This document shows, piece by piece, positions 8,273 to 28,086 of a stretch of 64,000 bases of DNA. The stretch is from Salegentibacter sp. 24 (GTDB lineage Bacteria > Bacteroidota > Bacteroidia > Flavobacteriales > Flavobacteriaceae), in contig NZ_SNWE01000022.1 in NCBI RefSeq assembly GCF_004362395.1, positions 1 to 64,000 on the forward strand, given 5' to 3'. The first letter of the stretch is position 1. Every line of letters begins with the position of its first letter. The translations under genes were made by a program, and so were the position numbers. Below the pieces are notes generated by a model. That model did not search any database. It saw only the letters and a list, made by a program, of their open reading frames with translations, and was not told the origin of the DNA.

Positions 8273-9484
8273 TTATATCAGTTTTGTTTTTATAATGGTC
8301 TCCGTGGTTAAACTTTTATGAACGGGGCAGCGATCTGCAATTTCCAGTAATCGCTGTTTTTGTTGTTCATCTAAATCTCCTATAAGTTTTATCTCTCTTT
8401 TGAAGGTGTCTATTTTTGAATCATTTTTTTCGCAATTTTCACAATCTAATTCATGTTCTCGCGCATAATATACATGGGTTTCTACATCTTCTAACGGCCA
8501 TTTTTTTCGTTTGGCATACATTTGAAGTGTCATAGAGGTACAGGCAGCTAAACCAGAAGACAAAAATTGATATGGAGTTGGGCCGTAATCCTTTCCACCG
8601 GCGCTTACTGGTTCGTCTGCCAGGAAGGTATGATTTCCTGCTTTCATACTTGTGGTAAAAGCATCCTCTTTTTCTAAGCCGGCTACAACATCTGCATTAG
8701 ATTCAGGAATTTCTATTTTGGGAATTTCTAAATAACGCGAAGCCCAGGAAGCAATAACATTTCCAGCATATGTGGCGTCAGTTTCACAAGCAAGTAAATG
8801 CTCTGCCCCGTCAAGGGAGATAAAACTCTTTGGATGTCTTGCAGCTAAATATAATTCTTCGGCATTCTTAATACTTACAATATTATCCTGTGGGGAATGC
8901 ATAATGAGAAGCGATTTTTTAAGATCTCTGAGGTAGGCTTTCAATTTATGTTTTTTAATATCTTCAAGAAATTGTTTTTTGATTTTGAAAGAGCGGCCAC
9001 CTATATTTACCTGGGCTTCTCCGTGTTTCTCAATCTCCTCTACATTATTTTCTATTAAATGCTGTACATGGGCTGTTGTAGAGGGTGCTGCGATGGTGGT
9101 AACAGCCTTAACCGATACCATTTCTTTTGCGGCGAATAATACCGCCGCGCCTCCAAGGGAGTGACCGATTAAAAGGCCTGGTGCTTTATGTTCCTGTTCT
9201 AAATAAGATGCAGCAGCCAGCAGATCCTGTATGTTTCCTGAAAAATTACTGTCTGAAAAGTCCCCCTGGCTTTCTCCTAATCCGGTAAAATCGAATCGTA
9301 AAACACCATACCCATTTTTGGCCAAGGTGCGACTGATATTTTTTGCAGCAAAGAAATTTTTATTGCAGGTAAAACAGTGCGCAAATAGCACGAAATTATG
9401 CGGGTCCTGATTAAAGGGGAGCTCCAGGTAACCTGATAGATCATCACCATTATTATTCTTAAAATTTACTTTTTCGGTTTTCAT
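8273..9484 (-). CDS. bifunctional alpha/beta hydrolase - OsmC fusion
   Basis: This 403-residue fusion joins two catalytic modules. Residues 1-255 are an alpha/beta hydrolase with nucleophile Ser109 in GHSLGG. Residues about 270-403 are an OsmC/Ohr-type domain with two conserved cysteines, Cys315 in LAACTSM and Cys386 in DRCPVHK, as in thiol-dependent hydroperoxide reductases. The architecture recurs in Bacteroidota and Proteobacteria; its substrate is not established. An additional CENC pair lies between the two catalytic cysteines. The gene is monocistronic, lies upstream of the superoxide dismutase on the same strand, and is probably part of oxidative-stress defence. Confidence 0.92.
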   Translation of the reverse strand: MKTEKVNFKNNNGDDLSGYLELPFNQDPHNFVLFAHCFTCNKNFFAAKNISRTLAKNGYGVLRFDFTGLGESQGDFSDSNFSGNIQDLLAAASYLEQEHKAPGLLIGHSLGGAAVLFAAKEMVSVKAVTTIAAPSTTAHVQHLIENNVEEIEKHGEAQVNIGGRSFKIKKQFLEDIKKHKLKAYLRDLKKSLLIMHSPQDNIVSIKNAEELYLAARHPKSFISLDGAEHLLACETDATYAGNVIASWASRYLEIPKIEIPESNADVVAGLEKEDAFTTSMKAGNHTFLADEPVSAGGKDYGPTPYQFLSSGLAACTSMTLQMYAKRKKWPLEDVETHVYYAREHELDCENCEKNDSKIDTFKREIKLIGDLDEQQKQRLLEIADRCPVHKSLTTETIIKTKLI

Positions 9485-9537
9485 AGCCCAATTTATTTTT
9501 CAATTTACAAATTGTTTGATTGATCTACAGCAAAAAA

Positions 9538-9593
9538 AAACTGATTAAAAATCTAAAACAGGTTTGATTCTGTCTATGACTTTTAATCAGTTT
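9538..9593 (-). terminator. terminator of the sugar-oxidation operon
   Basis: Perfect 13-base arms AAACTGATTAAAA (9538-9550) and TTTTAATCAGTTT (9581-9593) flank a 30-base loop that has its own ACAG/CTGT pairing. On the minus strand it runs straight into a T-tract (complement of 9532-9540). It closes the five-gene operon that ends at 9617. Confidence 0.85.
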
Positions 9594-9616
9594 GTTTATT
9601 AATTCCGGAAGTAGTA

Positions 9617-10375
9617 TTATTCCAGCTCTTTTATTTTAATGTTCCTGAACCAAACTTTATTACCGTGGTCCTGCAGGGCTATATGACCTTCCCTGTTCTT
9701 CCCAAAATCTTCCCAATCTTTAAATTTTGAATTTTCCACCAATTTACGCCATTCTTCGCCGTGAACAGGGAATTCATTGATTAAAGTTCCGTTTAGACGA
9801 ACTGAGCCTTTGTTGGTTTTATGGTTAATTCTAATCACTGTTTCATTCCACTCTCCAGCGTTTCTGGTTTTGTCTTCGCTTGGGGGCATCATATCGTATA
9901 GTGCACCAGCCTGTCTATCTTCACCATTTTTTGCATCTGGATGTAATTTATTATCCAGTATTTGAATCTCAGGACCGGTTAAGTAGGGCTCAGAGAATTC
10001 TTCACCTTCCTTAACACCCCACATAATTCCACTATTTCCGCCCTCTGAAATTTTCCATTCCAGGGAAAGTTCAAAATTTGAATAGGTGTTTTCTGTAATG
10101 AGGTTTTCAGAACCCTCACGCTCGCCTTGGGCAGGGGTGAAGGCAAGAACGCCGTCTTTTACCTGCCACTGGTCTGAAATTGAATCCGCGTTAAAGGCTT
10201 TCCAGTCCTCCAGGTTATCTCCATCTAACAGGTGTTTCCATTGATCTTCATTACTGGCTGTAGCAGTAGTATCATTGCTCATATCAGCTTGTGTTGCATC
10301 TTTTTCTTTTTTATCAGATTTACAGGCCGTGGCCATTACTGCGGCAATTACTAAAATTAAAGAGGTTTTTTTCAT
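9617..10375 (-). CDS. DUF1080 lipoprotein (3-keto-disaccharide hydrolase family)
   Basis: This 252-residue lipoprotein (MATAC, Cys18) carries one DUF1080 / PF06439 beta-sandwich domain over residues 45-250. Visible blocks are WKHLLDGDNLEDWKAF, NFELSLEWKISEGGNSGI and GHIALQDHGNKVWFRNIKI. The family is named for 3-keto-disaccharide hydrolase activity: cleaving the glycosidic bond of a sugar already oxidised at C3. It is the last gene of the operon, 10 bases after the isomerase-like gene. With a GMC dehydrogenase pair divergent from the operon, hydrolysis or elimination of 3-keto-glycosides outside the inner membrane is the most likely role. The substrate is unknown. Confidence 0.9.
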   Translation of the reverse strand: MKKTSLILVIAAVMATACKSDKKEKDATQADMSNDTTATASNEDQWKHLLDGDNLEDWKAFNADSISDQWQVKDGVLAFTPAQGEREGSENLITENTYSNFELSLEWKISEGGNSGIMWGVKEGEEFSEPYLTGPEIQILDNKLHPDAKNGEDRQAGALYDMMPPSEDKTRNAGEWNETVIRINHKTNKGSVRLNGTLINEFPVHGEEWRKLVENSKFKDWEDFGKNREGHIALQDHGNKVWFRNIKIKELE

Positions 10376-10385
10376 TTGTATATAT

Positions 10386-11441
10386 TTAATTAAGTCCTAA
10401 AATTTGTTTTAATTTTTGTTCGTCGATTTCACTACCAGCAAAATCATCAAATTTCTTTTCGGTAGCTTCAATAATATGGCTTTGAATAAATGGAGCTCCT
10501 TCACGAGCGCCCTGGTCCGGTGATTTTATGCAACATTCCCATTCAAGAACCGCCCAGACATCACAACCATATTCGGTTAATTTAGAAAATATGGTTTTAA
10601 AATCTACCTGCCCATCTCCTGGATGCCTATAGCGTCCGGCGCGGTCTATCCAATCTCCATAGCCACCAAAGGAACCTTTTTTTCCTGTAGGATTAAATTC
10701 GGCATCTTTTACATGGAACATTTTTATGAATTCATGGTAATGATCTATGTAGGAAATATAGTCTAACTGTTGCAGCACAAAATGGCTGGGATCGTACAAT
10801 AAATTTACCCGTTTATGATTATGAGTCGCCTCAAGGAAACGTTCAAAAGTAACGCCGTCGTGAAGGTCTTCTCCCGGATGAATTTCATAACAAAGATCTA
10901 CGCCCTGCTCATCAAATTCATTTAATATGGGGGTCCAGCGTTTTGCAAGTTCCTGAAACCCCATTTCTACCAGGCCTTCCGGTCTTTGGGGCCAGGGATG
11001 GGCAGTATGCCAAAGCAAAGATCCACTAAAGGTCCCGTGAACATCTAAACCAAAATGCCTGCTGGCTCGGGCTGCGCTTTTCATTTGATCAACAGCCCAT
11101 TGAGTTCTGGCTTTTGGATTGCCTTTGACCTTATCGGGTGCAAAATTATCGAACATGGTATCGTAGGCTGAATGTACCGCTACAAGCTGCCCCTGTAGAT
11201 GGGTACAAAGTTCGGTGACTTCCAGTCCGTAAGATTCTACTTTTCCTTTAATTTCCTGGCAATAATCCTTACTTTGTCCGGCTTTTTTTAAATCGATCAA
11301 AGCTGATTCCCAGGTCGGGATTTGAATTCCCTTATATCCTAAATCTGCAGCCCATTTGCAAAGGCCATCCAAACTGTTGAATGGCGCTTTATTATCCATA
11401 AATTGAGCTAAATAAACCGCAGGTCCTTTTACTGTTTTCAT
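10386..11441 (-). CDS. sugar phosphate isomerase/epimerase-like TIM barrel (cytoplasmic)
   Basis: The 351-residue protein has the xylose-isomerase-like AP-endonuclease-2 fold. Metal-site acidic and histidine residues appear in DLCYEIHPGEDLHDG, NLLYDPSHFV, MFHVKDAEFN and WAVLEWECC. There is no signal peptide, so it acts in the cytoplasm. It sits 12 bases after the Gfo/Idh/MocA gene. In this type of cluster such TIM barrels are candidates for the epimerase, isomerase or 3-keto-sugar eliminase step. The specific reaction cannot be read from sequence. Confidence 0.9.
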   Translation of the reverse strand: MKTVKGPAVYLAQFMDNKAPFNSLDGLCKWAADLGYKGIQIPTWESALIDLKKAGQSKDYCQEIKGKVESYGLEVTELCTHLQGQLVAVHSAYDTMFDNFAPDKVKGNPKARTQWAVDQMKSAARASRHFGLDVHGTFSGSLLWHTAHPWPQRPEGLVEMGFQELAKRWTPILNEFDEQGVDLCYEIHPGEDLHDGVTFERFLEATHNHKRVNLLYDPSHFVLQQLDYISYIDHYHEFIKMFHVKDAEFNPTGKKGSFGGYGDWIDRAGRYRHPGDGQVDFKTIFSKLTEYGCDVWAVLEWECCIKSPDQGAREGAPFIQSHIIEATEKKFDDFAGSEIDEQKLKQILGLN

Positions 11442-11453
11442 TTTTATTAAATT

Positions 11454-12593
11454 TTATGCTTCTAATTGCACCCAAACATTCCCTTTGGCGTGAGAATCTA
11501 CTACTTTTTCTATAAAATTCATTCCTCGTATTCCGTCTTTCATAGTAGGAAATTCTCCCGGATGATATTTTTCGCCATTAATGGCCCTGGCAACTCCTTT
11601 GTAGATATTACCCATAGAATCAAAAATACCTTCCGGGTGCCCCGGAGGTAATTTACTGCCATCTAATGCTAAAGCCGAATTATACTGGTGCCCGGGTTTT
11701 AATACTTTAATCGGTTGCCCGTCTTCTAACTTATAAAGGTAATTAGGGTTTTCCTGTTCCCATTTTAAACCCGCCTTTTTTCCGTAAATCTTAACGGCAA
11801 AATTATTTTCTTCTCCCGTAGCAATCTGGCTGGATCTTAGCACTCCCTTTACATAGTCTGAAAAACGTAACAGCACAGTACCATCTACATCCATTTTATT
11901 ATCAGAGTAAACGTAGTTTAGATCGGCTAATAGTTCTTTAACTTCCAGGCCTGAAACATACTCTATCATATCAAAGGCGTGTGTTCCAATGTCTCCAATA
12001 CAGCAGCTAATACCTCCTTTTTCTGGATCAAGACGCCAAATGCTATTTCTTTCCTCTTTATTGTGAATAATTGGGTTGATCCAACCCTGATAATACTGCA
12101 CGTCGATCTTCTGGATTTCACCAATCTCTCCCGCGGCTATCATTTCTTTCATCTGGCGAATCATGGGGTAACCGGTATAGGTGTAAGTTACCGCAAATAC
12201 AGTTTTCGATTTGTTGAGGGTATCTTCAAGGATTTTAGCTTCTTTATAAGTAGTGGTCATTGGTTTTTCACAGATCACGTGGAAACCATTTTCCAATAAT
12301 TGTTTAGCCATTGGGAAGTGAAGAAAGTTTGGCGTTAGAATAGAGACTGCCTTTATGCGTTCTTCCTCTGGTAATTTAGCTTCTTCACTAATTAAATGGT
12401 CTAAATCTTTATAAACCCGATCAGTTCCAATGCCCAATTCCTGGGCAAATTTTTTGCTTTCTTCCAATTCGGGATTAAAAACCCCACCTACGAATTCAAA
12501 TTTATCATACATCGTAGAAGCGACACGGTGCAAGATCCCGATAAGGGAATCGCCGCCACCGCCCAATACTCCTAATTTTATTTTTTTACTCAT
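11454..12593 (-). CDS. Gfo/Idh/MocA-family NAD(P)-dependent sugar oxidoreductase
   Basis: The 379-residue protein has an N-terminal Rossmann fold (KLGVLGGGGDSLIG, residues 6-19) and the family's EKP signature at 109-111 (VICEKPMTTT). The C-terminal Gfo/Idh/MocA alpha/beta domain includes CCIGDIGTHAFDMIEYV, which carries the catalytic-region Asp and His. These enzymes oxidise or reduce cyclic sugars, often at C3. In this operon it could reduce the imported 3-keto-sugar back to the parent hexose using NAD(P)H, or oxidise glycosides at C3. The start at 12593 is 23 bases after the permease stop. Confidence 0.92.
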   Translation of the reverse strand: MSKKIKLGVLGGGGDSLIGILHRVASTMYDKFEFVGGVFNPELEESKKFAQELGIGTDRVYKDLDHLISEEAKLPEEERIKAVSILTPNFLHFPMAKQLLENGFHVICEKPMTTTYKEAKILEDTLNKSKTVFAVTYTYTGYPMIRQMKEMIAAGEIGEIQKIDVQYYQGWINPIIHNKEERNSIWRLDPEKGGISCCIGDIGTHAFDMIEYVSGLEVKELLADLNYVYSDNKMDVDGTVLLRFSDYVKGVLRSSQIATGEENNFAVKIYGKKAGLKWEQENPNYLYKLEDGQPIKVLKPGHQYNSALALDGSKLPPGHPEGIFDSMGNIYKGVARAINGEKYHPGEFPTMKDGIRGMNFIEKVVDSHAKGNVWVQLEA

Positions 12594-12616
12594 ATTTTTA
12601 TAATCTTTTTGCTTGG

Positions 12617-13852
12617 TTAAATTTCAATATCTTTTTTCTCGATTTTTTCATTTTTGAAGAAAATAGCAAATAATATCATAACTACAAAGGCAAAACCTGC
12701 CGGAACTATCCAAATTTGTTCCCAGTCATGGGTGCCATCCGCGTAGAGATAAAGGTCACTAATTTTTCCTGCTACCCAGAAACCAACTAGCATTCCTACG
12801 CCATAAGTAGCCAGGGTGATTAAACCTTGTGCTGCACTTTTAATTTTTGGTCCTGCTTTAGAATCGGTATAGATCTGGCCGGATACAAAGAAAAAGTCAT
12901 AGCAAATTCCATGGAGCGCAATTCCTATTATTAGCATATAAACCAATTCGCCTGCATTCCCGTAGGCAAAAAGTAAATAACGAAGTACCCAGGCAAACAT
13001 CCCAGCCAATAACGTAATTTTAAAACCAAATTTTTTAAAAAAGAAAGGCAGTAATAAGAGAAATAAGGCTTCAGAAATTTGGCCTATAGACATCATAAAA
13101 GTGGGATCTTCCATCCCTACTTCAGAAAGAAAAGGGTTGGCGTTTTGATAATAAAAAGCCAGTGGAATACAAATCAATACTGATGAGATAAAAAACATTA
13201 AAAAGTTTCTTCCTTTAAGAAGCGCCAATGCTTCCAGTCCTAAAATATCAGACAAAGTCACTTTCTCACCTTTGCTGCTTGGAGGCGTCTTAGGTAAGGT
13301 AAAACTAAAAAATCCTAAAATTGCAGATGCAATCGCAGACATTAAAAAGGTATATTTAAGCATTCCATCTTCCCGGGCTATTTCTGCATCCCAGCCAAAT
13401 ACCAAGCTAATTACCACACCGGAAACAATCCAGCCAATAGTTCCAAAGACTCTAATACTTGAAAATTGTTTAGAAGGATCTGTCATCTGATAGAAAGAAA
13501 TCGAATTTACCAAAGCCAGGGTTGGCATATAAATAATCATATATCCCAAAACAAAGGGATAAAAAACGGTAAATTCATCTGCCTGGAACATCATATAGAG
13601 CAAAACTGCTCCTACTAAATGAAGGAATCCCAGGATGCGCTCGGCATTAAAAAAGCGATCGGCAATAAGACCAATTATAAAGGGAGCAATAATGGCTCCC
13701 CAGGATTGTGTAGAAAACGCCATCCCTGTTTGGGCACCGGTAGCGCTTAAATTGAGGCCTAAAAACGTTCCTAAAGTTACAAACCATCCACCCCAAATAA
13801 AAAACTGGAGGAACATCATGGTTGATAGTTGAAATCTGGTTAAACTTTTCAT
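12617..13852 (-). CDS. NupG-like MFS permease (nucleoside:H+ symporter family)
   Basis: The 411-residue protein has about 12 membrane helices and the Nuc_H_symport pattern: FLQFFIWGGWFVTLGTFL at the N-terminus and the loop SIRVFGTIGWIVSG near residue 130. A cytoplasmic central loop follows helix 6 (PKTPPSSKGEKV). Although the family is named for nucleosides, Bacteroidota members inside Gfo/Idh/MocA clusters probably carry sugars or 3-keto-sugars across the inner membrane. That substrate is inference from context. It lies 18 bases after the periplasmic isomerase-like gene. Confidence 0.9.
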   Translation of the reverse strand: MKSLTRFQLSTMMFLQFFIWGGWFVTLGTFLGLNLSATGAQTGMAFSTQSWGAIIAPFIIGLIADRFFNAERILGFLHLVGAVLLYMMFQADEFTVFYPFVLGYMIIYMPTLALVNSISFYQMTDPSKQFSSIRVFGTIGWIVSGVVISLVFGWDAEIAREDGMLKYTFLMSAIASAILGFFSFTLPKTPPSSKGEKVTLSDILGLEALALLKGRNFLMFFISSVLICIPLAFYYQNANPFLSEVGMEDPTFMMSIGQISEALFLLLLPFFFKKFGFKITLLAGMFAWVLRYLLFAYGNAGELVYMLIIGIALHGICYDFFFVSGQIYTDSKAGPKIKSAAQGLITLATYGVGMLVGFWVAGKISDLYLYADGTHDWEQIWIVPAGFAFVVMILFAIFFKNEKIEKKDIEI

Positions 13853-13870
13853 TATCTTTTTTAGCTTCTC

Positions 13871-14884
13871 TTAATTGTTATTACTGTTTAATTTGCTTCC
13901 AACTTCCATTAAAAGTTCTTTGGTGGCTAGGATACCTTCTTCTGCCGAGAGATCTTCACCTTCATATTCTACGCCGACATAACCTGTGTAACCAGCATCC
14001 TGGACTATTTTCAGAATCCTTTCATAATCAAGGGTGGTTTCTTCACCTTCTTCGTTGAATTTGTAAGACTTGGCGCTTACGGACTTTGCATAAGGCATCA
14101 TCTCTTTTATTCCCTGGTATTTTGGATATTCTTCAATGCATTTTGCTTCCCATCGCTCGCCGCCTTCTCGTTTTAGACAGAAATTACCAAAATCGGGTAG
14201 TGTTCCGGCATTTTCCATATTCACTCCTTCCATTACTTCTACTAAAAGTTCAGCATTTGAAGAAAGGTAACCGTGATTTTCAACCAAAACATTTACATTT
14301 TTCTTTGCAGCATATTCGCTAAGCGCTTTTAAGCCTTTTATAGCTGAATCTTTCCATACCTGGGGATCTTCACTTCCGAACAGATTTACCCTAATTGAGT
14401 GGGCTCCCAGAAAGCTGGCGGCATCTACCCATTTTTTATGATTTTCTACTGCTTTTTGACGTTCTGCTGGATCCGGGCTTGCTAATTCTCCCTCACCATC
14501 TACCATAATTAAAACATTATCGACATTAAATTTTTCACTTTTAGCTTTTAAAGTATCCAAAACTTTTTGCATTGCTTCTTCAGGGTTTTCTGCCTCGGCA
14601 ATTTGAGGAGCATAAAAAGAGCTAACATATTCAATACCTTTAAAACCCAATTCGTTTGCTTTTTCAGCGAAATCCATAGGATCCAATTCCCCAGCAAAAA
14701 TGGGTTTATTAAGTGACCATTGCGCCAAGGAAATGTCGAAAAATGGTTCAGCATTTTGTTCGGTTTGTACTTGAGTGGTTTCTATACTTTCATTTTCTGA
14801 TTTTTGATCCTTACAGGAATAAATTCCCAGGGATAAAAAAAGAATCAATAAATAGGATAAAATTTTGGTTGGTGTAATTTTCAT
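13871..14884 (-). CDS. sugar phosphate isomerase/epimerase-like lipoprotein
   Basis: The first gene of the operon encodes a 337-residue TIM-barrel protein of the xylose-isomerase-like family carrying a lipoprotein signal (LGIYSC, Cys24). Unlike the cytoplasmic paralogue at 10386-11441 it is exported. The barrel blocks include DISLAQWSLNKPIF, VNVLVENHGYLS and AGYTGYVGVEYEGED, with acidic residues typical of the metal site. An exported isomerase-like enzyme cannot be acting on phosphorylated cytoplasmic sugars. An isomerase, epimerase or eliminase step on a 3-keto-glycoside in the periplasm or at the surface is the most reasonable inference. Confidence 0.9.
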   Translation of the reverse strand: MKITPTKILSYLLILFLSLGIYSCKDQKSENESIETTQVQTEQNAEPFFDISLAQWSLNKPIFAGELDPMDFAEKANELGFKGIEYVSSFYAPQIAEAENPEEAMQKVLDTLKAKSEKFNVDNVLIMVDGEGELASPDPAERQKAVENHKKWVDAASFLGAHSIRVNLFGSEDPQVWKDSAIKGLKALSEYAAKKNVNVLVENHGYLSSNAELLVEVMEGVNMENAGTLPDFGNFCLKREGGERWEAKCIEEYPKYQGIKEMMPYAKSVSAKSYKFNEEGEETTLDYERILKIVQDAGYTGYVGVEYEGEDLSAEEGILATKELLMEVGSKLNSNNN

Positions 14885-14938
14885 GGAATGAATTTAAAAG
14901 TTACTAGGATTTGATTTTACTGATATTTTTTGGATCTT

Positions 14939-14952
14939 AAAAGTATACTTTT
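14939..14952. promoter_or_regulatory. 14-base palindrome in the divergent sugar-oxidation promoter region
   Basis: AAAAGTATACTTTT is a perfect palindrome located between the two divergent units, just downstream of the proposed minus-strand -7 element. It could be an operator for a dimeric regulator. AT-rich DNA gives such palindromes by chance, so confidence is modest. Confidence 0.35.
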
Positions 14953-14963
14953 TTTTAAAGAAG

Positions 14964-14971
14964 CAAAATTA
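14964..14971 (-). promoter_or_regulatory. -7 element TAATTTTG for the minus-strand operon
   Basis: The minus strand reads TAATTTTG, matching TAnnTTTG. Transcription would begin near 14957, about 70 bases before the start at 14884. No clear TTTG -33 element is seen. Confidence 0.4.
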
Positions 14972-14985
14972 TAACCTTAAATTTA

Positions 14986-14993
14986 TATATTTG
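14986..14993 (+). promoter_or_regulatory. -7 element TATATTTG for the GMC dehydrogenase
   Basis: TATATTTG matches the Bacteroidota -7 consensus. Transcription would begin near 15000, about 35 bases before the GTG start. A consensus -33 is not evident. Confidence 0.45.
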
Positions 14994-15034
14994 GAAGGAT
15001 TCGATGAACTAAATTATTAATAAACTACAAGACA

Positions 15035-16738
15035 GTGAGCAATTTTTATGAAAATGACACTTATGATGCTATCGTCGTAGGTACAGGAATTAGCGGTGGT
15101 TGGGCCGCAAAAGAACTCAGTGAAAAAGGATTTAAAACTCTCGTTCTTGAACGTGGACGTATGGTCAAACATATTGAAGATTATCCTACAATGAACGATG
15201 ATCCCTGGGATTATAAATTTAAAGGTCAGTTAACCCGAGAGGAAGAAAAACGACAACAGAAACAATCCCGTACGGGCTATACCACTAATAAAGCAAGTGC
15301 ACACTGGTTTGTTGATGATATTAAGCATCCGTATAATGAAGTTAAAAGGTTTGACTGGATGCGGGGTTATCACGTTGGCGGAAGGTCTATTATGTGGGGA
15401 CGTCACAGTTACCGATTGAGCAATATAGACTTCACAGCCAATAAAAATGATGGTCACGGTGTGGATTGGCCAATTAGATATAATGATATCGCCCCCTGGT
15501 ATGATTATGTTGAATCTTATATAGGAGTAAGTGGAGAAAATCTGGGCTTAAAACAGTTGCCAGATGGTAAATTTCTTCCACAAATGCCACTAAACTGTGT
15601 AGAAGATCATCTTAAAAAAAGTATGGCCGAAAATTTTGACGATGGTCGGGTATTAACTGCAGGCCGGGTTGCCCATATTACCGGTGACAAGGAATTTGAA
15701 GGCCGTTCCAATTGTCAGTATAGAAACCGTTGTATTAGAGGTTGTCCTTATGGAGGGTATTTTAGCAGTAACTCCTCGACCTTACCTGCCGCTGAGCGTA
15801 CAGGAAATATGACCTTAAGACCAAATTCTGTGGTTCACGAGGTCGTTTACGATCCAGAAACCAAATTGGCTACGGGGGTAAAGATTATAGATGCGGAAAC
15901 TAAAGAAGAAATTGAATTTAAAGCGAATGTGATTTTCCTTTGTGCATCAGCAATAGCCTCCACAAGTATTCTTATGCAATCAAAATCTGATAGATTTGAG
16001 AACGGCATGGGGAATGATAGTGGAGAATTAGGTCACAATGTAATGGATCATCATTTTCGCGCTGGAGCTTCGGCTAAGTACGATGGATTTGAAGATAAAT
16101 ATTATAAGGGACGCAAACCTAATGGAATCTATTTACCTCGATTTAGAAATATAAACGGAAACGATAAACTTAATTTCGTGCGTGGTTACGGTTACCAGGG
16201 TGGTGCTGGCCGTGGAGACTGGAGCGATACTATTGCGGAAGCTTCATACGGAAAGGAACTAAAAGAGGCTATTGTAAAACCCGGAGGCTGGACAATGGGA
16301 TTAATGGGCTTTGGTGAAACTTTGCCATATCACGAGAATAAAATGACCCTTGATTATGAAAAGACCGATCAGTGGGGCTTGCCAACTGTTACTTTTGATG
16401 CTGAGTTTAAAGAAAATGAACTTAAAATGAGAGAGGATATGGTAGAACAAGCAGTGGTTATGCTAGAAAAAGGTGGTTTTAAGGATATCGAGCCCTATGA
16501 TTATTTAGGAGCACCTGGATTAGGTATACACGAAATGGGAACTGCCAGAATGGGTAGAGATCCAAAAACCTCAGTGTTAAATGGAAATAATCAGGTACAT
16601 GCTGTTCCAAATGTATATGTTACTGATGGCTCTTTTATGACCTCTGCAGGTTGCCAGAATCCTTCGCTAACTTATATGGCCATGACTGCAAGAGCAGCAG
16701 ATCACGCTTCTAAGAATTTTAAAAAATCTAAAGCTTAA
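15035..16738 (+). CDS. GMC-family oxidoreductase, large subunit of a glucoside 3-dehydrogenase type enzyme
   Basis: The 567-residue FAD enzyme starts at GTG 15035. The FAD fold is at residues 11-25 (DAIVVGTGISGGWAA). The C-terminal GMC domain carries the catalytic pair His499 (GIHEMGTARMG) and Asn542 (GCQNPSLT). Residues 227-237 hold three cysteines (Cys227, Cys233, Cys237), a possible Fe-S site like that in bacterial FAD-glucose dehydrogenases. There is no signal peptide; export probably depends on the Tat signal of the small subunit encoded 11 bases downstream. It would oxidise a sugar or glycoside hydroxyl, plausibly at C3, and pass electrons to a cytochrome not encoded here. Confidence 0.9.
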   Translation: MSNFYENDTYDAIVVGTGISGGWAAKELSEKGFKTLVLERGRMVKHIEDYPTMNDDPWDYKFKGQLTREEEKRQQKQSRTGYTTNKASAHWFVDDIKHPYNEVKRFDWMRGYHVGGRSIMWGRHSYRLSNIDFTANKNDGHGVDWPIRYNDIAPWYDYVESYIGVSGENLGLKQLPDGKFLPQMPLNCVEDHLKKSMAENFDDGRVLTAGRVAHITGDKEFEGRSNCQYRNRCIRGCPYGGYFSSNSSTLPAAERTGNMTLRPNSVVHEVVYDPETKLATGVKIIDAETKEEIEFKANVIFLCASAIASTSILMQSKSDRFENGMGNDSGELGHNVMDHHFRAGASAKYDGFEDKYYKGRKPNGIYLPRFRNINGNDKLNFVRGYGYQGGAGRGDWSDTIAEASYGKELKEAIVKPGGWTMGLMGFGETLPYHENKMTLDYEKTDQWGLPTVTFDAEFKENELKMREDMVEQAVVMLEKGGFKDIEPYDYLGAPGLGIHEMGTARMGRDPKTSVLNGNNQVHAVPNVYVTDGSFMTSAGCQNPSLTYMAMTARAADHASKNFKKSKA

Positions 16739-16749
16739 AAATCACCGTT

Positions 16750-17394
16750 ATGAATAGAAGACAGGCATTAAGAAACATAGGACTCGGAACCGGTGCCATA
16801 ATTGTTGGACCGGCAACTTTAAACCTTTTACAAAGTTGTAAAAGTGAACCTACATATGATTGGCAGCCTACCTTTTTAAGTGCTTCCAATGGTTTTGCAT
16901 TAAAACAGATTTTGGAGGTAATCCTTCCTAAAACCGAAACTCCCGGCGCAGATGAATTGAACATTGCTGAATTTATTGATTCTTATATGGAGCAGGTAGC
17001 TCACCCCGAAAGACAGGAGAAATTCAAGCAATCTGCCGATGCATTTTCAAGAGCTTTTAAGAAGGAATTTGACAAAGAAGAAGCTGAAGGCAGCTCGGAA
17101 GAATATGAACAAATTATAGCGAAATATTTGAAAGCCACTCCTTCTGAAAGAGGTGAGATTGCAAAACGAACGACAGAAACCCAAGATCCTCAGGATCGAG
17201 ATCAAAGAATAAGTTTAGATGCTGATGCAGGTTCTCTGGCTTATCTGGAAGAAGTTCGGGATATGGGAATTTGGGCTTATAAAACAAGTGAAGAGATCGG
17301 TGAGAATGTAATGTGGTACGATCCAATTCCTGGCCAATATATACCATGTGGTCCGGTAGATGAACTCGGCGGAGGTAAAGCTATGTCGCTTTAA
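16750..17394 (+). CDS. gluconate 2-dehydrogenase subunit 3-like small subunit with Tat signal
   Basis: The 214-residue protein begins with a twin-arginine signal (NRRQALRNIG, Arg3-Arg4), a hydrophobic run to about residue 27 and a lipobox-like LLQSC (Cys30), suggesting a Tat-exported lipoprotein. The remainder matches the gluconate 2-dehydrogenase subunit 3 family, with VILPKTETPGADELNIAEFI near residue 60. Members of this family are the small partner of GMC-type dehydrogenases. They assist maturation and carry the folded large subunit through the Tat system. The cytochrome subunit often found beside such pairs is absent here. Confidence 0.9.
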   Translation: MNRRQALRNIGLGTGAIIVGPATLNLLQSCKSEPTYDWQPTFLSASNGFALKQILEVILPKTETPGADELNIAEFIDSYMEQVAHPERQEKFKQSADAFSRAFKKEFDKEEAEGSSEEYEQIIAKYLKATPSERGEIAKRTTETQDPQDRDQRISLDADAGSLAYLEEVRDMGIWAYKTSEEIGENVMWYDPIPGQYIPCGPVDELGGGKAMSL

Positions 17395-17416
17395 TACTGC
17401 AAGAAAATTTTATGTA

Positions 17417-17450
17417 AAAAGCCTCACGATTTTAATACCGTGAGGCTTTT
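17417..17450. terminator. bidirectional terminator between convergent units
   Basis: Perfect 12-base arms AAAAGCCTCACG (17417-17428) and CGTGAGGCTTTT (17439-17450) flank a 10-base loop. T-runs on both strands end the dehydrogenase operon (plus) and the FG-GAP/haloperoxidase operon (minus). Confidence 0.9.
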
Positions 17451-17483
17451 CTCTGACATACTATTGCTTTAGGATCACATAGG

Positions 17484-18386
17484 TTATTCTAATAAAGGCA
17501 GGTATATCTCAGCTTTCCATTGCTGGGGATCAGTACCTAATTGTGGGTTAGTTTGAAAAACCTCCAGGATATTCCCGGCTTCGACTTTGATATTGTTTTT
17601 TTCGGCATAATCAAGTAAATGAAACCAGGCATAATGGGAAAACATATAATTTCCGTAAAAACTGGCTTTTAAGGATTTTTTTGAAGAAATTTCTTTTATG
17701 TCAATTAGCATGTTCGTTGGATAATTTTTCCTTTTAGCGATGGGAAAGCAAAACTTAAAATCAATTTTTTTTGTGATTTTATTCCAGGATTCAATGAGTA
17801 TTCTTGGCCTTCCCTTAGTTTTTAATTTATGGTCCAGAATAAAGTTGGTAAGGATGTCTATGGTTCTCATCATCTCAAAAGCTTTTTCATCTGTTTTACC
17901 CGTTGCGCTGATGCAGGCACAAGTACTTGCAGGTGAAACAGCCTTTTCTTCAATTTTAACGGTATATAATTTGAGACTCGCAGAAAGAGCTTCTTTAAAA
18001 AATTGAATTTCATTTTTCATTTCCTTTTGTAAATCATTTTGCCCCAGCAGCAATAATAAACGATCATTAAAAGAATTTTTTGTATTTATAATCCCAACTT
18101 CTACTGTGTTAACCGAATCATTTTTGGGCGAAATATGCCATTGAAGATCATAAGTTTCTTTCCTTAATTTTACCTGCTGGATGATATTGGAAAAATTAGA
18201 ATTGATTTTCGTGTCATAGGCTTCCATCTTTTCAAAAATGGGGCTATCCAGCCTGTATGCTATTTCACCGGGAAGTGCTTTGGTTTCAAATGTAATGGTG
18301 TAATCGTATTTTTTTATGGGAAAATACCATAACAGAAAGAGAATAGGTACTCCAGTTAAAAAAATTAGCCAGTTTTTTTTCGACAT
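17484..18386 (-). CDS. membrane-anchored protein with GyrI-like effector-binding domain
   Basis: The 300-residue protein has one N-terminal membrane helix (about 7-24). A middle region (30-150) looks like the SRPBCC-like half of similar proteins. The C-terminal GyrI-like / effector-binding domain (about 160-300) has the family features GNYMFSHYAWFHLLDYAEKN and the closing WKAEIYLPLLE. This fold binds small hydrophobic or amphipathic ligands. It starts 3 bases after the stop of the haloperoxidase-like gene and is the last gene of that operon. A soluble-ligand-binding domain tethered outside the membrane would fit binding of the cluster's substrate or product. That role is inference. Confidence 0.75.
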   Translation of the reverse strand: MSKKNWLIFLTGVPILFLLWYFPIKKYDYTITFETKALPGEIAYRLDSPIFEKMEAYDTKINSNFSNIIQQVKLRKETYDLQWHISPKNDSVNTVEVGIINTKNSFNDRLLLLLGQNDLQKEMKNEIQFFKEALSASLKLYTVKIEEKAVSPASTCACISATGKTDEKAFEMMRTIDILTNFILDHKLKTKGRPRILIESWNKITKKIDFKFCFPIAKRKNYPTNMLIDIKEISSKKSLKASFYGNYMFSHYAWFHLLDYAEKNNIKVEAGNILEVFQTNPQLGTDPQQWKAEIYLPLLE

Positions 18387-18389
18387 TAA

Positions 18390-19724
18390 TTAATAGCTGA
18401 GGGGTTGCAGGTTTAGGTTTCGAACCACATGATTTCCGATATTTTTTCCCTGTACCAAACCATTCTCCACTGCAGAACGGTAATGAATTCCACCATATAA
18501 TCTGCTTACAGCGGCTTCGCTGGCTGCGTGAGAAAAAGAATTGAATGTTCTAATGGGTAAACCATATTTAACTTCCGTATCATCTTTAAAGCTAAAATTA
18601 TTGCCGAATAGTTTTGTAAGTACAATAGAAGCTGCACCAGATACCACAGAATGGCCACTGGAATATTCCGGAAAAGGTGGAGTTTGTAAAACAGGTTTCC
18701 AGTTGTCGTCTACATATTTGTTAATTAATGTTTCTGGTCTCACAAGATTACTACTGTACTTTTCTTCCCAACAACTAATAAATCCATCGGCCAGGGCAAT
18801 AGCGGTAGCAGTATAGGCATAGGAACTTTGCGAAAAGTTTAGATCAGCTTTTTTAGCTGCAATTTTACAAATGCCCATCCAATGACCACCCGGGGTGATT
18901 TTCTTGGTAGCGAACATCAGATGACCGCGTTGGGTAGAAACATAAGGGTTACAATCCCAGAATTGGGCAATTTTAACTTCTTCGGCCTTATCACCGGTTT
19001 CCTCCATCTGTTTTTTTATTTCATACACCTCCATTAATTCATTATGAAATGTGGTTCCTTCTGTAAGTGAAAATTCAGGATGAGGTGCTGGTTTAAATTG
19101 TGATGCAGAATCAAGAGTAAATGGCCTTATTTTTTCCCAATGTGGTTCGATCCCATCCATATAAGAAGGTGGTGTGGGTTGCCAGCGACCAGGATCGTCA
19201 CTATACACGGTGTATTTAGGCATAGTCCGCGTTTCTTTATAATTATCTTTATCCATCCATTTAGACAAGTGACGCGCGACCTCCAGGCCATATTTTTTTG
19301 AGGAAACAAATTCTTCCTGGTTAATTTTTTTCCAGCTAGCATAAAGGCTATCCCGGTAGGAAGTAAGCATATCTTCAGAAAAGATCAATTTCTTTCCAAT
19401 TTCCATCTGTGCAACCAGCGCTGCAACCTTAAAATTGATGTGCCTTGTAGAATCCGCTTTTGGAATTGGTTCCAGTTTTTCAAATTCAGCACTGAAATCT
19501 ACTAGCTCCTTATTTTCCTGTCTCATAATTTGATAAGCAGCAAGGTTGGAATAAGCGTATATACGACTGGCAACAGGGGGTGAAAAAATATCGTGTACCA
19601 TAATATCGGTAATCTTATCTACCGTTTGGTGATAATTTTTTGCTGAAACCTCAATAGGTTTTTGGTCTCCGCGACAGGAACTTAATAGAACCGAACAAAT
19701 AAATAGGGTGACAAAAACTCTCAT
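18390..19724 (-). CDS. vanadium-dependent haloperoxidase / PAP2-family lipoprotein
   Basis: The 444-residue lipoprotein (LLSSC, Cys17) keeps the three motifs of the vanadate/phosphate pocket: K-x6-RP (Lys322, Arg329-Pro330), SSGH at 355-358 in place of PSGH, and SRxxxGxH at 407-414 (Ser407, Arg408, His414). These residues bind vanadate in haloperoxidases or a phosphoryl group in acid phosphatases. Whether it halogenates, is a phosphatase or does something else is not decided by sequence. Many Bacteroidota members of this branch are uncharacterised. The start abuts the stop of the preceding FG-GAP gene with no gap, so the genes are one operon. Confidence 0.88.
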   Translation of the reverse strand: MRVFVTLFICSVLLSSCRGDQKPIEVSAKNYHQTVDKITDIMVHDIFSPPVASRIYAYSNLAAYQIMRQENKELVDFSAEFEKLEPIPKADSTRHINFKVAALVAQMEIGKKLIFSEDMLTSYRDSLYASWKKINQEEFVSSKKYGLEVARHLSKWMDKDNYKETRTMPKYTVYSDDPGRWQPTPPSYMDGIEPHWEKIRPFTLDSASQFKPAPHPEFSLTEGTTFHNELMEVYEIKKQMEETGDKAEEVKIAQFWDCNPYVSTQRGHLMFATKKITPGGHWMGICKIAAKKADLNFSQSSYAYTATAIALADGFISCWEEKYSSNLVRPETLINKYVDDNWKPVLQTPPFPEYSSGHSVVSGAASIVLTKLFGNNFSFKDDTEVKYGLPIRTFNSFSHAASEAAVSRLYGGIHYRSAVENGLVQGKNIGNHVVRNLNLQPLSY

Positions 19725-22700
19725 TTAATTCTTTATTTTATAAAATTCAGGTTTGCCATTATTTAGGCTTACCATAAGGTAATTAATTCCATTAAAATCG
19801 ATAATATCAAGGCTTCTTATACTTTTTTGGGTAAGATTTAGTCCAAGATCAACGCCTTTAAGGATACTACCATTGTTGGTAATGATATTCCCAGCAAGTG
19901 CATCGAACCTTCCGTGGTATGGGGTAACACCAAAATAATTCCCTGCAACTAATACTTCATCCTCATTATCCTTATTAAAATCTGCCTTTAAAAATGCTAA
20001 AATAGGAGCAACCTGCAAAGAATTTTTAAAAGGCTTAAATATAAACTTACCATCCTGATTTAACAAATATCCCGAAGCCAATGTATGCACTTCCAGTAGT
20101 TTGGCATCCTCTAAAGCCTTGGTTCCGAAAATTTCCTCTACTGATTTTCCCGCGAAATCCTTATACTCTGGAAACTTCTTTCTTAAATAGGAAAGTTGTC
20201 CTACTAATTCATCCAGACCATGAACAGTATAATATTTTTTATTTTTCGCGTAGGCTACAATGGTCTCCGTACTGCTGTTTTTATCGAAATCTGAATAATA
20301 CATTTTTAATGGAAATTCTTGCGAAGCCTGAAATTTACTGTTCAAACCCCAGTTGCCAAGTAAATAATCCATTTTTCCATCATTATTTATATCATAAGGG
20401 ATGATACTTTGCCAAAGCCCGTTCAGCTTCTTTCCCAGTAATGTCTCTGAAATATTATTTAAATTTCCGTTATTATTAATAAAGAATTTTGGAGCCATCC
20501 ATTCCCCAATTACAATAAGATCTTCCTGACCATCTGCATTAAAATCGGTCCAAACCGCATCGGTGACCATACCCACCTTATCAAGTTCGGAATTTTCCTT
20601 GATCCGGAATTTTCCATTTTCATTTAGGAGTAAGTAGGAGGAAGGGATTTTTCCAAAATCATTGGAAACTGCAGCACCTCCTACAAAAATATCCAGGTCA
20701 CCATCGCCGTCAATATCGCCTGGTTTGGCTACCGAGGTGTTTTCAAAATATTTCGGTAATGCTTTAGCATTTAATTGACCATTTTCAAAAACATACATCC
20801 TGTCTAGTAAAGCATCAGCTTGTCCAAAAAATTCACCCCCTCCCGAGCTAACAAATAGTTCATTTTTAGGAGAATTATCCAAATTTGCGATAAAGGCGGA
20901 AGTATTCTCTGTTTTTTTATCTTTCTTAAGAAGTTCTAAATCTTGCGGTTTAAAATTATTTTTTTGTTGAAAAAAGATTTCTGCAGGTTGAAATTTTGAG
21001 CCTCCAAAGTAGATATCATCCAGGTCATCAGCATTTAAATCCCCCACCGCAACTGCTGGTCCACGATCTGAAATTTGATAAGGAATCAGTTTTTGACGAT
21101 TAAAATCTGTATACCTGTTCTCCAGATGTCTGTAAGTAATTCCAGGTAAGGAATCAGTTTTTTCAAACCAAACCTCTGGGACTGGATAAAGCCTTTTATA
21201 GTTAATACTATCCCGGCTACTCTTTGGTCTTATCACTAAATGTTGATTTAATTCGAGTTCCGTATATTTTTGATAGGTATTATCCGGCCAGATGATCAGT
21301 AGGGAATCTAATTTTTTCTGTTTTGGAAAACCAAAATGAACAATCGCTTCAGAAGAAGACTGGAAACCTTTAGAGGTATAAAGCTGGCGGGTTTGCATTT
21401 TTCCGTCCTGCCAGGCAATGCTTTTGGTACCAATTCCAAAGGTATTCCCAGTATCTAACTCGAAAGATAATTTCAAATAGGCTGAAGTAGAATCCGACTG
21501 GTTTTCATAAATAAACGAGTTTTCATTGATATTGTTACTCACAATATCCAAATCGCCATCCATGTCTAAATCACCATATGCGATTCCAGTAGATATCACA
21601 GAATCTCTCTCGATCCATTTCCCTGATTGGTCCTTAAAATCGAGATTTTCTGCGCCTTTAAAAATATAATTGTGCACCTTTCCAGAAGGCATCATATCTA
21701 GGGCCTCATTATCTACCAAACGGGTATTGTTTATTTTTTTCTGAATCTGATTGCTGGAAACGTATTTAATATAATCCAAATCATTAGGGCGTTTAGGAAT
21801 ACCCGTGGCAATAAACAAATCTTGATAGCCATCCTGATTAAAATCTGCGAATAGGGGAGCCCAGCTCCAATCTGTAGCGGCTACACCACTTAAGAGACCT
21901 GCTTCCTGGAAATATTGCCCATGCTGATTTATTTGCAACATATTGCGGGTATACTGGTAATGGTATCCTAGCTGATCAGTCTTCAACTTGTCTAAATCCC
22001 TGGGATCATCACCTACAGAGGCTTTTAAAACTTTTTCATCCTGTGGGAGCATATCCAGGGTCATAATATCTATAAACCCATCGTTATTTACATCAGCGGC
22101 ATCATTGCCCATAGAGAACCTGCTTACATGACCAAATTTAGATTTTAAGCTTTCGGTAAAAGTGCCGTCTCCTTTGTTTAAGTAGTAATAATCATCTTCG
22201 TGAAAATCGTTACTGACATAAATATCGGTAAATCCATCATTGTTAAAATCGGCTGTGGCAAGGCCGAGTCCATAACCATTGGCACCTCCATAAATTCCTG
22301 CTTGCTCACTGACATCAACAAAATTACCGTTATCATTTCTTAACAGTTTATCACCACTCTCTGCAACTCGATTATTTCTTATATCTGCGGGGCCATAGGT
22401 GTTGACCGTATGCACTGCGTGATTTAGAAGGTACATATCCAAATCTCCATCGTTATCAAAATCGAAAAACGCTGCTGTGGAAGAATAATTTTGGAAGTCT
22501 AATCCGAATTCTTTAGCCTTTTCCGAAAATGTACCATCCCCATTGTTGATAAATAGTTCGTTTTTGCCATTGAGTCCGTTGATTCCCACAACGGCACATA
22601 TATAAATATCTAAAAAACCATCTGCGTTAACATCGGCCATAACTACACCGGTATTCCAATCTGATGTACCTGAAACTCCTGCATTTTCGGTGATATCTTC

Positions 22701-22991
22701 AAACCTCATGTTTCCTTTATTGAGAAAAAGTTTGTTTTCCACCTGGTTCCCCGTAAGGTAAATATCGGGTAAAGTGTCATTATTTATATCACCAACGGCA
22801 ACGCCCCCACCATTGTAGTAATACAGGTAATCTAAAATATTTAAAGCTTTGGTTTCTCTAAGTTCGTTGCTAAAATTTAATCCAGTAGTTTCGGCGGGAA
22901 GTTGTTCAAAAAGATAATCTTTCCCAGTGTTTTCTTTCTCACAGGAGAACAAAAAAAGCAATAAAAGCAGTAAACTAAAGTGCTTTTTCAT
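19725..22991 (-). CDS. large FG-GAP/VCBS repeat lipoprotein with ASPIC/UnbV domain (second copy)
   Basis: From the ATG at 22991 the protein has about 1,088 residues and begins with a lipoprotein signal (lipobox LFSC, Cys17). An ATG at 23018 in frame adds nine residues. The N-terminal half is a beta-propeller of FG-GAP/VCBS repeats with DxNxDGxxD calcium loops (for example DVNADGFLDIY and DFDNDGDLDMY). The middle holds an ASPIC/UnbV domain (GIGTKSIAW to LLIIWPDN). A second repeat block follows, with DIDGDGDLDIFVGG. It is a surface-type binding scaffold. It overlaps the end of the paralogous gene upstream by 17 bases and abuts the haloperoxidase-like gene. Confidence 0.92.
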   Translation of the reverse strand: MKKHFSLLLLLLFLFSCEKENTGKDYLFEQLPAETTGLNFSNELRETKALNILDYLYYYNGGGVAVGDINNDTLPDIYLTGNQVENKLFLNKGNMRFEDITENAGVSGTSDWNTGVVMADVNADGFLDIYICAVVGINGLNGKNELFINNGDGTFSEKAKEFGLDFQNYSSTAAFFDFDNDGDLDMYLLNHAVHTVNTYGPADIRNNRVAESGDKLLRNDNGNFVDVSEQAGIYGGANGYGLGLATADFNNDGFTDIYVSNDFHEDDYYYLNKGDGTFTESLKSKFGHVSRFSMGNDAADVNNDGFIDIMTLDMLPQDEKVLKASVGDDPRDLDKLKTDQLGYHYQYTRNMLQINQHGQYFQEAGLLSGVAATDWSWAPLFADFNQDGYQDLFIATGIPKRPNDLDYIKYVSSNQIQKKINNTRLVDNEALDMMPSGKVHNYIFKGAENLDFKDQSGKWIERDSVISTGIAYGDLDMDGDLDIVSNNINENSFIYENQSDSTSAYLKLSFELDTGNTFGIGTKSIAWQDGKMQTRQLYTSKGFQSSSEAIVHFGFPKQKKLDSLLIIWPDNTYQKYTELELNQHLVIRPKSSRDSINYKRLYPVPEVWFEKTDSLPGITYRHLENRYTDFNRQKLIPYQISDRGPAVAVGDLNADDLDDIYFGGSKFQPAEIFFQQKNNFKPQDLELLKKDKKTENTSAFIANLDNSPKNELFVSSGGGEFFGQADALLDRMYVFENGQLNAKALPKYFENTSVAKPGDIDGDGDLDIFVGGAAVSNDFGKIPSSYLLLNENGKFRIKENSELDKVGMVTDAVWTDFNADGQEDLIVIGEWMAPKFFINNNGNLNNISETLLGKKLNGLWQSIIPYDINNDGKMDYLLGNWGLNSKFQASQEFPLKMYYSDFDKNSSTETIVAYAKNKKYYTVHGLDELVGQLSYLRKKFPEYKDFAGKSVEEIFGTKALEDAKLLEVHTLASGYLLNQDGKFIFKPFKNSLQVAPILAFLKADFNKDNEDEVLVAGNYFGVTPYHGRFDALAGNIITNNGSILKGVDLGLNLTQKSIRSLDIIDFNGINYLMVSLNNGKPEFYKIKN

Positions 22992-26349: not shown

Positions 26350-26430
26350 CGAGGAAAAACAGGATTTAATATTGGAATATATGCTTAGCAATTTAAGCAA
26401 AAATTAAGAAGCGTCTAAGTTTAGAAATAG

Positions 26431-26469
26431 AAAAGAGACTAAAAATACTATACATTTTTAGTCTCTTTT
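26431..26469 (-). terminator. hairpin between susD and the FG-GAP operon
   Basis: Perfect 16-base arms at 26431-26446 and 26454-26469 (AAAAGAGACTAAAAAT and its complement) flank a 7-base loop. On the minus strand the 3' arm ends in T-rich sequence. It is 18 bases past the susD stop. It may terminate susCD fully or partially, or protect the 3' end. Confidence 0.85.
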
Positions 26470-26487
26470 TTAAAATCAATTCAGTTA

Positions 26488-28077: not shown

Positions 28078-28086
28078 AATTCTCTT

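Follow-up and report, generated by a model that had tools for sequence, protein, structure and literature searches.

Positions 9617–17394 of a 64,000-nucleotide stretch of Salegentibacter sp. 24 (contig NZ_SNWE01000022.1, positions 1 to 64,000, hereafter the window; the source genome is a 4.15 Mb assembly of 61 contigs) carry seven intact open reading frames (ORFs), arranged as a five-gene operon on the - strand facing a two-gene unit on the + strand, whose predicted products may together support the utilisation of glycosides. The + strand unit encodes the large subunit of a GMC flavo-dehydrogenase (15035–16738; Pfam GMC_oxred_N and GMC_oxred_C), which has no signal of its own, and a small subunit of the Gluconate_2-dh3 family (16750–17394; Pfam, 2.4e-20) with a twin-arginine translocation (Tat)-type signal and a lipobox. 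Across a divergent intergenic region of 150 bp (14885–15034), the - strand operon encodes, in the order of transcription, an exported lipoprotein TIM barrel of 337 amino acids, here called XBAR (13871–14884; AP_endonuc_2, 5.3e-28; lipobox-type signal), a major facilitator superfamily (MFS) permease of the nucleoside:H+ symporter family (NupG-type; 12617–13852; Nuc_H_symport PF03825, 3.6e-116), a cytoplasmic Gfo/Idh/MocA oxidoreductase, here Gfo (11454–12593; Pfam GFO_IDH_MocA), a cytoplasmic barrel in which no signal was seen, here HYD (10386–11441; AP_endonuc_2, 4.8e-38), and a DUF1080 lipoprotein (9617–10375; 3keto-disac_hyd, PF06439, 1.2e-46; lipobox). The five - strand genes are separated by gaps of only 10 to 23 bp. 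A preliminary description of this DNA had named the same families in two divergent units and proposed glycoside breakdown lacking a classical glycosidase; Pfam backs every family so named and finds no such glycosidase among the seven genes. The pattern TTTG-N16-23-TANNTTTG, a Bacteroidota promoter pattern, had 0 matches across the window, against 5.7 expected from shuffles.

The most informative member of the locus is HYD, which matches PDB entry 8ro4, titled 2-hydroxy-3-keto-glucal hydratase, over its full length (residues 1–350; 544 bits, E = 1.2e-162), the next-best PDB match being far weaker (149 bits). Judged by its sequence, the cytoplasmic barrel is a 2-hydroxy-3-keto-glucal hydratase, which replaces the isomerase-like role first suggested for it. 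Because of this full-length match, cleavage of the glycoside at the locus is most likely an elimination and the imported species is probably an unsaturated keto-sugar. Five residues (E186, H188, D217, H243, and E302), presumably those of the metal site, are invariant in all ten aligned sequences. Identity to HYD of Rhizobium and Pseudoalteromonas is 64–66%, while the nearest named relative is that of Zunongwangia mangrovi (87%), at whose locus the PAP2-, GyrI-, and CRTAC-type neighbour genes are also common to the window. In a tree built from 44 of the 86 HYD rows at hand, the flavobacterial rows fall together, with one Balneolaceae row among them, and the four alphaproteobacterial ones make up a single clade, while the Pseudoalteromonas row is long and its placement unsure.

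Using HYD alone as the query, 80 named loci were retrieved (the best 80 of at least 594 matches, mostly from one family, so that conservation partly reflects shared ancestry) and their neighbouring genes were scored with the window proteins; gene order was counted over recognised genes only, between which others may intervene, and strict gaps were counted separately. XBAR was present at 54 of these loci, the pair of GMC and small subunit at 55, at least one DUF1080 gene at 64, and at least one of two MFS types at 58, with all seven functions present at 46/80. XBAR was accompanied by GMC at 53 of its 54 loci, the exception (L055) starting at a contig end, and the layout in which small subunit and GMC diverge from XBAR occurred at 37/80 loci and, with an AraC regulator gene between the units, at 10 more. 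As many genomes repeat this divergent layout, the grouping is not by chance, and the two units are one conserved system, in keeping with the earlier view that they belong together. Across a sample of 148 genomes from the host's order, its own included (E limits: HYD, 1e-60; GMC, 1e-150; XBAR, 1e-40), HYD was found in 10 genomes, GMC in 13, and XBAR in 8, and all 10 HYD-positive genomes were also GMC-positive (Fisher, 2.8e-13, or 3.2e-12 without the host's own genome, values that are optimistic because kinship among the genomes limits their independence). In one of the sampled genomes (G039), GMC and XBAR form the divergent pair but HYD is missing. Export signals, called by a simple pattern with split ORFs counted more than once, were detected at the 80 loci in 44/55 XBAR, 39/58 DUF1080, and 56/57 small-subunit ORFs (lipobox or twin-arginine [RR] motif) and in none of the HYD (0/80), Gfo (0/76), or GMC (0/70) ORFs, a distribution whose predicted compartments fit a path split between periplasm and cytoplasm.

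The two genes flanking HYD in the operon remain close to it elsewhere. Upstream on the same strand, Gfo is found at 72/80 loci, ending ≤200 bp from HYD at 53, within 2 kb at 11 more, and further away at 8, with none upstream at the other 8/80. By gene and by place this adjoining Gfo-family gene corresponds to that of Agrobacterium-type loci, and the enzyme is a candidate 3-keto-glucose reductase on the strength of its family and neighbourhood. Its best PDB match is 3v5n (2.9e-93) and its best NCBIfam match, levoglucosan dehydrogenase, is far below the cut-off, as are the scores against the BT_2158 and BT_2159 models (38.8 and 25.3 bits, with cut-offs of 750 and 650). Downstream, 61 loci carry a DUF1080 gene, which starts ≤200 bp after HYD at 58 of them. 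The window's DUF1080 protein belongs to PF06439 (159.6 bits; cut-off, 26.8), matches PDB entries 8rr2, 8tda, and others with E values of about 1e-37, and keeps the central and C-terminal motifs; it is a candidate periplasmic 3-keto-glycoside eliminase despite the name ‘hydrolase’ borne by the family, and a 2024 study has reportedly described elimination by DUF1080 proteins. Additional genes recur around the locus in other genomes (L051, L070, L071, L079, and others), comprising two more DUF1080 subfamilies, a barrel with an RR signal, and a Gfo protein with an RR signal. In the host genome, a separate site (G000:C12:92241-98111) encodes a protein in which DUF1080 occurs twice next to a Gfo/Idh/MocA protein with an RR signal, with a GH3 glycosidase gene approximately 0.9 kb away.

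The permease scores 375.8 bits against the NCBIfam nucleoside permease model TIGR00889, below the curated cut-off of 446.1. A permease lies between XBAR and Gfo at 52 of the 54 XBAR loci, starting ≤200 bp from XBAR at 37 of these and after a gap of 0.2–1.5 kb at 15, and is of the NupG type (37 loci), of an unrelated type, MFS2 (11 loci), or both (4 loci). That unrelated carriers stand in for one another at this position suggests a common cargo, and with cleavage outside and hydration inside the cytoplasm this cargo would be 2-hydroxy-3-keto-glucal. The permease is thus a candidate importer of the cleavage product, though import of 3-keto-glucose is possible; to our knowledge, a dedicated importer for a reactive unsaturated 3-keto-sugar would be the first of its kind to be proposed.

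The best PDB matches of the GMC protein are the large subunits of glucose and fructose dehydrogenases, and three cysteines (C-x5-C-x3-C) align with the Cys-rich motif of these enzymes, a motif that holds a 3Fe-4S cluster; such a cluster fits an electron-passing dehydrogenase rather than an oxidase. Its small subunit begins MNRRQALRN, with the RR of a Tat-type signal, followed by a lipobox (SCK within LQSCKSE), and GMC is probably exported together with it, as the family would suggest. At the level of family, a GMC dehydrogenase paired with a Tat small subunit matches the Agrobacterium-type loci. A PHROGs search with the GMC protein was empty. Near the GMC pair, 25/80 loci (e.g., L027, L037, L040, and L058) carry an azurin-type cupredoxin gene (26 ORFs, of which a single one was checked by Pfam), which is tail-to-tail with the small-subunit gene at 12 loci (≤16 bp apart), immediately precedes GMC in the same orientation at one (L040), sits on the opposite strand at a distance of 0.5–2.3 kb at 11, and is 4.2 kb away at 1. 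These genes are a lead for the electron acceptor of GMC, an inherited neighbourhood being equally likely, and are not used as evidence here. A second GMC gene occurs on the opposite strand between Gfo and HYD, at approximately 8.1–9.9 kb, in five loci (L034, L035, L041, L046, and L066), from Maribacter, Cellulophaga, and Flagellimonas. The host genome also has a second small GMC/barrel pair, adjoining a TonB plug-domain gene, in which a GMC paralogue (70%) faces an RR-signal TIM barrel of the AP_endonuc_2 family (G000:C30:1326-4201).

XBAR shares 47–50% identity with 4ovx, a solved structure to which no function has been given. In an alignment of 31 sequences, the window's own and 30 from the 54 XBAR loci, residues E202, N203, H204, D231, E306, and E308 are invariant, and in an AlphaFold model (pLDDT confidence score, 92) strand 5 closes with residue 202, residue 231 comes after strand 6, and strands 7 and 8 contain residues 270 and 306, respectively. 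The Agrobacterium eliminase AtOGE is described as binding its metal through His132, Asp163, and His189, and weakly through Glu233, with these residues on strands 5 through 8, His132 replaced by Glu in the C-glycoside lyases, and His134 being catalytic (PMC10628242). In XBAR, E202-N-H204 falls where the C-glycoside lyases have their metal Glu and catalytic His, and XBAR retains the Glu, catalytic His, Asp, and a Glu of the lyase site; HYD likewise has an E-x-H (E186, H188). Foldseek placed C-glycoside lyases at ranks 2–8, directly after the homologue 4ovx, and on that result XBAR had been held closest to these lyases by fold, an assessment since lowered because VIA-align showed no such preference: a 3-epimerase-like barrel reached Z 26.9, the C-glycoside lyases 26.0 and below, tied with further 3-epimerases, and Escherichia coli YcjR, titled 3-keto-D-glucoside 4-epimerase, 23.8. 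The eliminase structure 8bvk was absent among the matches listed (best 50) by either program. From names, length, and residues, 8bvk is probably AtOGE and 8ro4 the corresponding hydratase AtHYD. A comparison of the profiles of XBAR and HYD indicated no reliable homology (probability, 1.6). Based on the retained residues, XBAR, for which the preliminary description proposed no role of its own, may be a second periplasmic 3-keto-glycoside lyase.

A comparable set of genes exists outside the Bacteroidota. A plasmid record of Pseudoalteromonas donghaensis holds, in one row, Gfo, HYD, an MFS permease, DUF1080, GMC, the small subunit, and a barrel whose N-terminus resembles a signal, in a gene order that differs from that of the window. 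Identity to the window proteins is 66% for HYD, 41% for DUF1080, and only 31% for GMC, while the permease is 61% identical to the MFS2 type that replaces NupG in other flavobacteria. The barrel belongs to another family than XBAR and shares an HNH motif with the 8bvk-type eliminase; profile comparison with XBAR gave no reliable homology (probability, 44), the alignment pairing E202 and H204 with the two His of the HNH motif. Assembly of the same functions from unlike parts is a good argument for a single pathway. Side by side, HYD, Gfo, and the GMC pair also occur in a Croceicoccus record.

Collectively, the locus is best read as a route for glycoside utilisation by oxidation, elimination, hydration, and reduction, divided between periplasm and cytoplasm, to which we assign, on sequence-based evidence, a probability of roughly 0.6. 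GMC, exported by way of the Tat signal of its small subunit, would oxidise a glycoside or disaccharide at C3 of the sugar, as the families and gene context suggest. In the periplasm, the DUF1080 protein, XBAR, or both, with differing preferences for anomer or aglycone, would then release the aglycone by beta-elimination and leave 2-hydroxy-3-keto-glucal, which the MFS permease would import. In the cytoplasm, HYD would add water to form 3-keto-glucose, the best-supported single step given its similarity to a solved enzyme, and the Gfo/Idh/MocA enzyme encoded next to it would reduce this to glucose. Much of the preliminary description survives in this scheme, as C3 oxidation, cleavage outside the cytoplasm, import, and cytoplasmic reduction are the natural reading of the genes; its import of a free 3-keto-sugar is now the less likely option, as the match to 8ro4 favours an unsaturated keto-sugar. 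A more specific version, in which two periplasmic lyases with complementary stereochemical or aglycone preferences (DUF1080 and a new barrel clade with a His-to-Ser change at the metal site) supply a dedicated glucal importer (NupG-type or MFS2) ahead of hydration and reduction inside, the functional set having come together independently in Bacteroidota and a gammaproteobacterium, is put forward tentatively, as a possibility well below even odds.

Several observations weigh against the pathway as proposed. The carbon path can fairly be called complete-looking, as the preliminary description had it, but no match to an electron acceptor, cytochrome included, was found among the ten proteins encoded at 8273–19724 and eight more window proteins (the rest of the genome being unsearched). 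Neither GMC nor XBAR is in reach at 20/80 HYD loci, several of them on short contigs, and 4/10 HYD-positive genomes of the order-level sample have no XBAR match at 1e-40 (6/10 have one). Five loci (L027, L029, L037, L039, and L056) have GMC, Gfo, HYD, and DUF1080 with neither XBAR nor a permease nearby; the idea that they prove cleavage by DUF1080 alone was rejected, as XBAR is present elsewhere in three of the five genomes and a NupG-family permease elsewhere in four. In one record each of Rhizobium, Phyllobacterium, and Azospirillum, HYD accompanies ABC (ATP-binding cassette) transporters and a Gfo gene, with no annotated GMC within 8 kb of HYD, and HYD therefore also serves other layouts. 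For XBAR itself, the strand-7 metal His of the C-glycoside lyases is replaced by S270 in 31/31 sequences, VIA-align ranked Art22, titled isomerase, second-best (Z 29.1 and 28.6) and above the lyases, and hhalign found no usable similarity (probability, 2.4) to a protein that matches 8bvk at 7.5e-35.

A different role for XBAR would be that of a periplasmic epimerase or isomerase of 3-keto-sugars (like YcjR, Art22, and the 3-epimerases) converting, for example, 3-keto-galactosides to 3-keto-glucosides, in which case a single lyase and a single reductase would be enough. Such a role is compatible with the proposed functions of the other genes and would draw on the VIA-align ranking, in which Art22 and the 3-epimerase-like barrel precede the C-glycoside lyases, and on the fate of 3-keto-galactose, a gap left open in the lactose route (PMC9007349). 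The invariant E202-N-H204, at the metal-Glu and catalytic-His positions of the lyases as these are described for AtOGE and PuCGE (PMC10628242), and the Foldseek ranks of the C-glycoside lyases argue the other way; an epimerase is regarded as doubtful, and on its residues XBAR is likelier, without certainty, to be a second lyase.

Cleavage could instead be hydrolytic, with DUF1080, either by itself or helped by XBAR acting as a hydratase in the periplasm, freeing a 3-keto-sugar that the permease imports and Gfo reduces, while HYD salvages leaked glucal. The name of PF06439, 3-keto-disaccharide hydrolase, points in this direction, as do BT2157, cited as hydrolysing 3-ketotrehalose, and CCNA_01705, for which hydrolysis of 3'-ketolactose has been proposed (PMC9007349), and Gfo is needed under either mechanism. 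However, a tight operon with Gfo ending so close to HYD at 53/80 loci would be odd for a salvage enzyme, and the elimination reportedly carried out by DUF1080 proteins also speaks for a lyase, leaving a hydrolytic route unlikely. A path for cyclitols or other sugar acids, pairing an inosose dehydratase-like barrel with an inositol dehydrogenase-like Gfo and involving no glycosides, was rejected as highly improbable, as the matches to IolE (67.3 bits) and IolG (64.5 bits) are far below the curated cut-offs (290 and 355), HYD reaches 544 bits against the 3-keto-glucal hydratase, and the DUF1080 gene would have no evident place.

Around the locus, the window also encodes an alpha/beta hydrolase fused to an OsmC domain (8273–9484; Pfam) and, at 18390–31173, a SusC/SusD pair, two ASPIC/UnbV FG-GAP proteins, and a PAP2-type protein that converge on the seven genes. 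Relatives of the SusC/SusD or CRTAC-type genes also flank the HYD locus, though differently ordered, in Zunongwangia mangrovi (L023), Christiangramia sediminis (L025), and one metagenome-assembled genome (L062), three loci picked for having such genes; of two further genomes tested, one has relatives elsewhere in the genome and the other none at E 1e-60. These neighbours may be an outer-membrane uptake part.

Parts of the system resemble others already described. The Agrobacterium tumefaciens operon of the GMC dehydrogenase GlycDH, a TIM-barrel eliminase, HYD, and Gfo acts on 3-keto-phlorizin, the evidence for the hydratase being called preliminary by its authors (PMC10628242). The Agrobacterium operon and the present locus have in common a GMC dehydrogenase, a HYD relative, a Gfo reductase, and the predicted four-step chemistry; in place of the AtOGE-type eliminase, none of which is among the seven genes (the rest of the genome being unsearched), the latter has a DUF1080 lipoprotein, an exported barrel of another family, an MFS permease, and a divergent layout of two units. 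In the three-component LacABC, the GMC protein and the small subunit are LacC and LacA, and no counterpart of the third component, a cytochrome c, was found among the flanking proteins scanned here. The lactose route of Caulobacter and Pedobacter (LacABC and DUF1080) combines, as here, GMC, a small subunit, and an exported DUF1080 protein (PMC9007349). The 3-keto-C-glycoside lyases (DgpB/C, DfgA/B, AgCarB2-C2, MtCGD, and DaCGD) share with XBAR the barrel fold and the position of E-x-H, whereas XBAR is exported, is 16–23% identical to them, and has Ser for the strand-7 metal His, and no small partner subunit of their type is among the seven genes. The gut Bacteroides system BT2156–BT2160 resembles the locus in a DUF1080 protein, a TIM-barrel partner, and Gfo-type enzymes, which act there as the C3 dehydrogenases (NCBIfam models BT_2158 and BT_2159), while here a GMC flavoenzyme would oxidise and a HYD relative is present. 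The structures 8rr2, 8tda, and 8tcd presumably belong to two 2024 studies of gut Bacteroides 3-keto-glycoside chemistry; a 2024 paper in Angewandte Chemie is said to describe a conserved non-hydrolytic glucoside pathway, and one in Nature of the same year reportedly an alternative glycan pathway of broad specificity.

The chemistry and all of the families are already known, and what sets the locus apart is how they are combined. It joins oxidation, hydration, and reduction of the Agrobacterium type to a DUF1080 protein of the Bacteroides type, another exported barrel, and a permease, and many Flavobacteriaceae keep this set in two units that face each other; a literature search found no paper describing the flavobacterial locus, which is no proof that none exists. 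With annotations such as ‘sugar phosphate isomerase/epimerase’, ‘Gfo/Idh/MocA family oxidoreductase’, ‘MFS transporter’, and ‘DUF1080’, the route is easily missed in surveys of carbohydrate use in Bacteroidota. If the proposed pathway is correct, 4ovx, as a relative of XBAR, would gain a testable role, a candidate transporter for an unsaturated 3-keto-sugar would be named, and these bacteria would obtain glucose from diverse small glycosides by means of one oxidase-lyase set.

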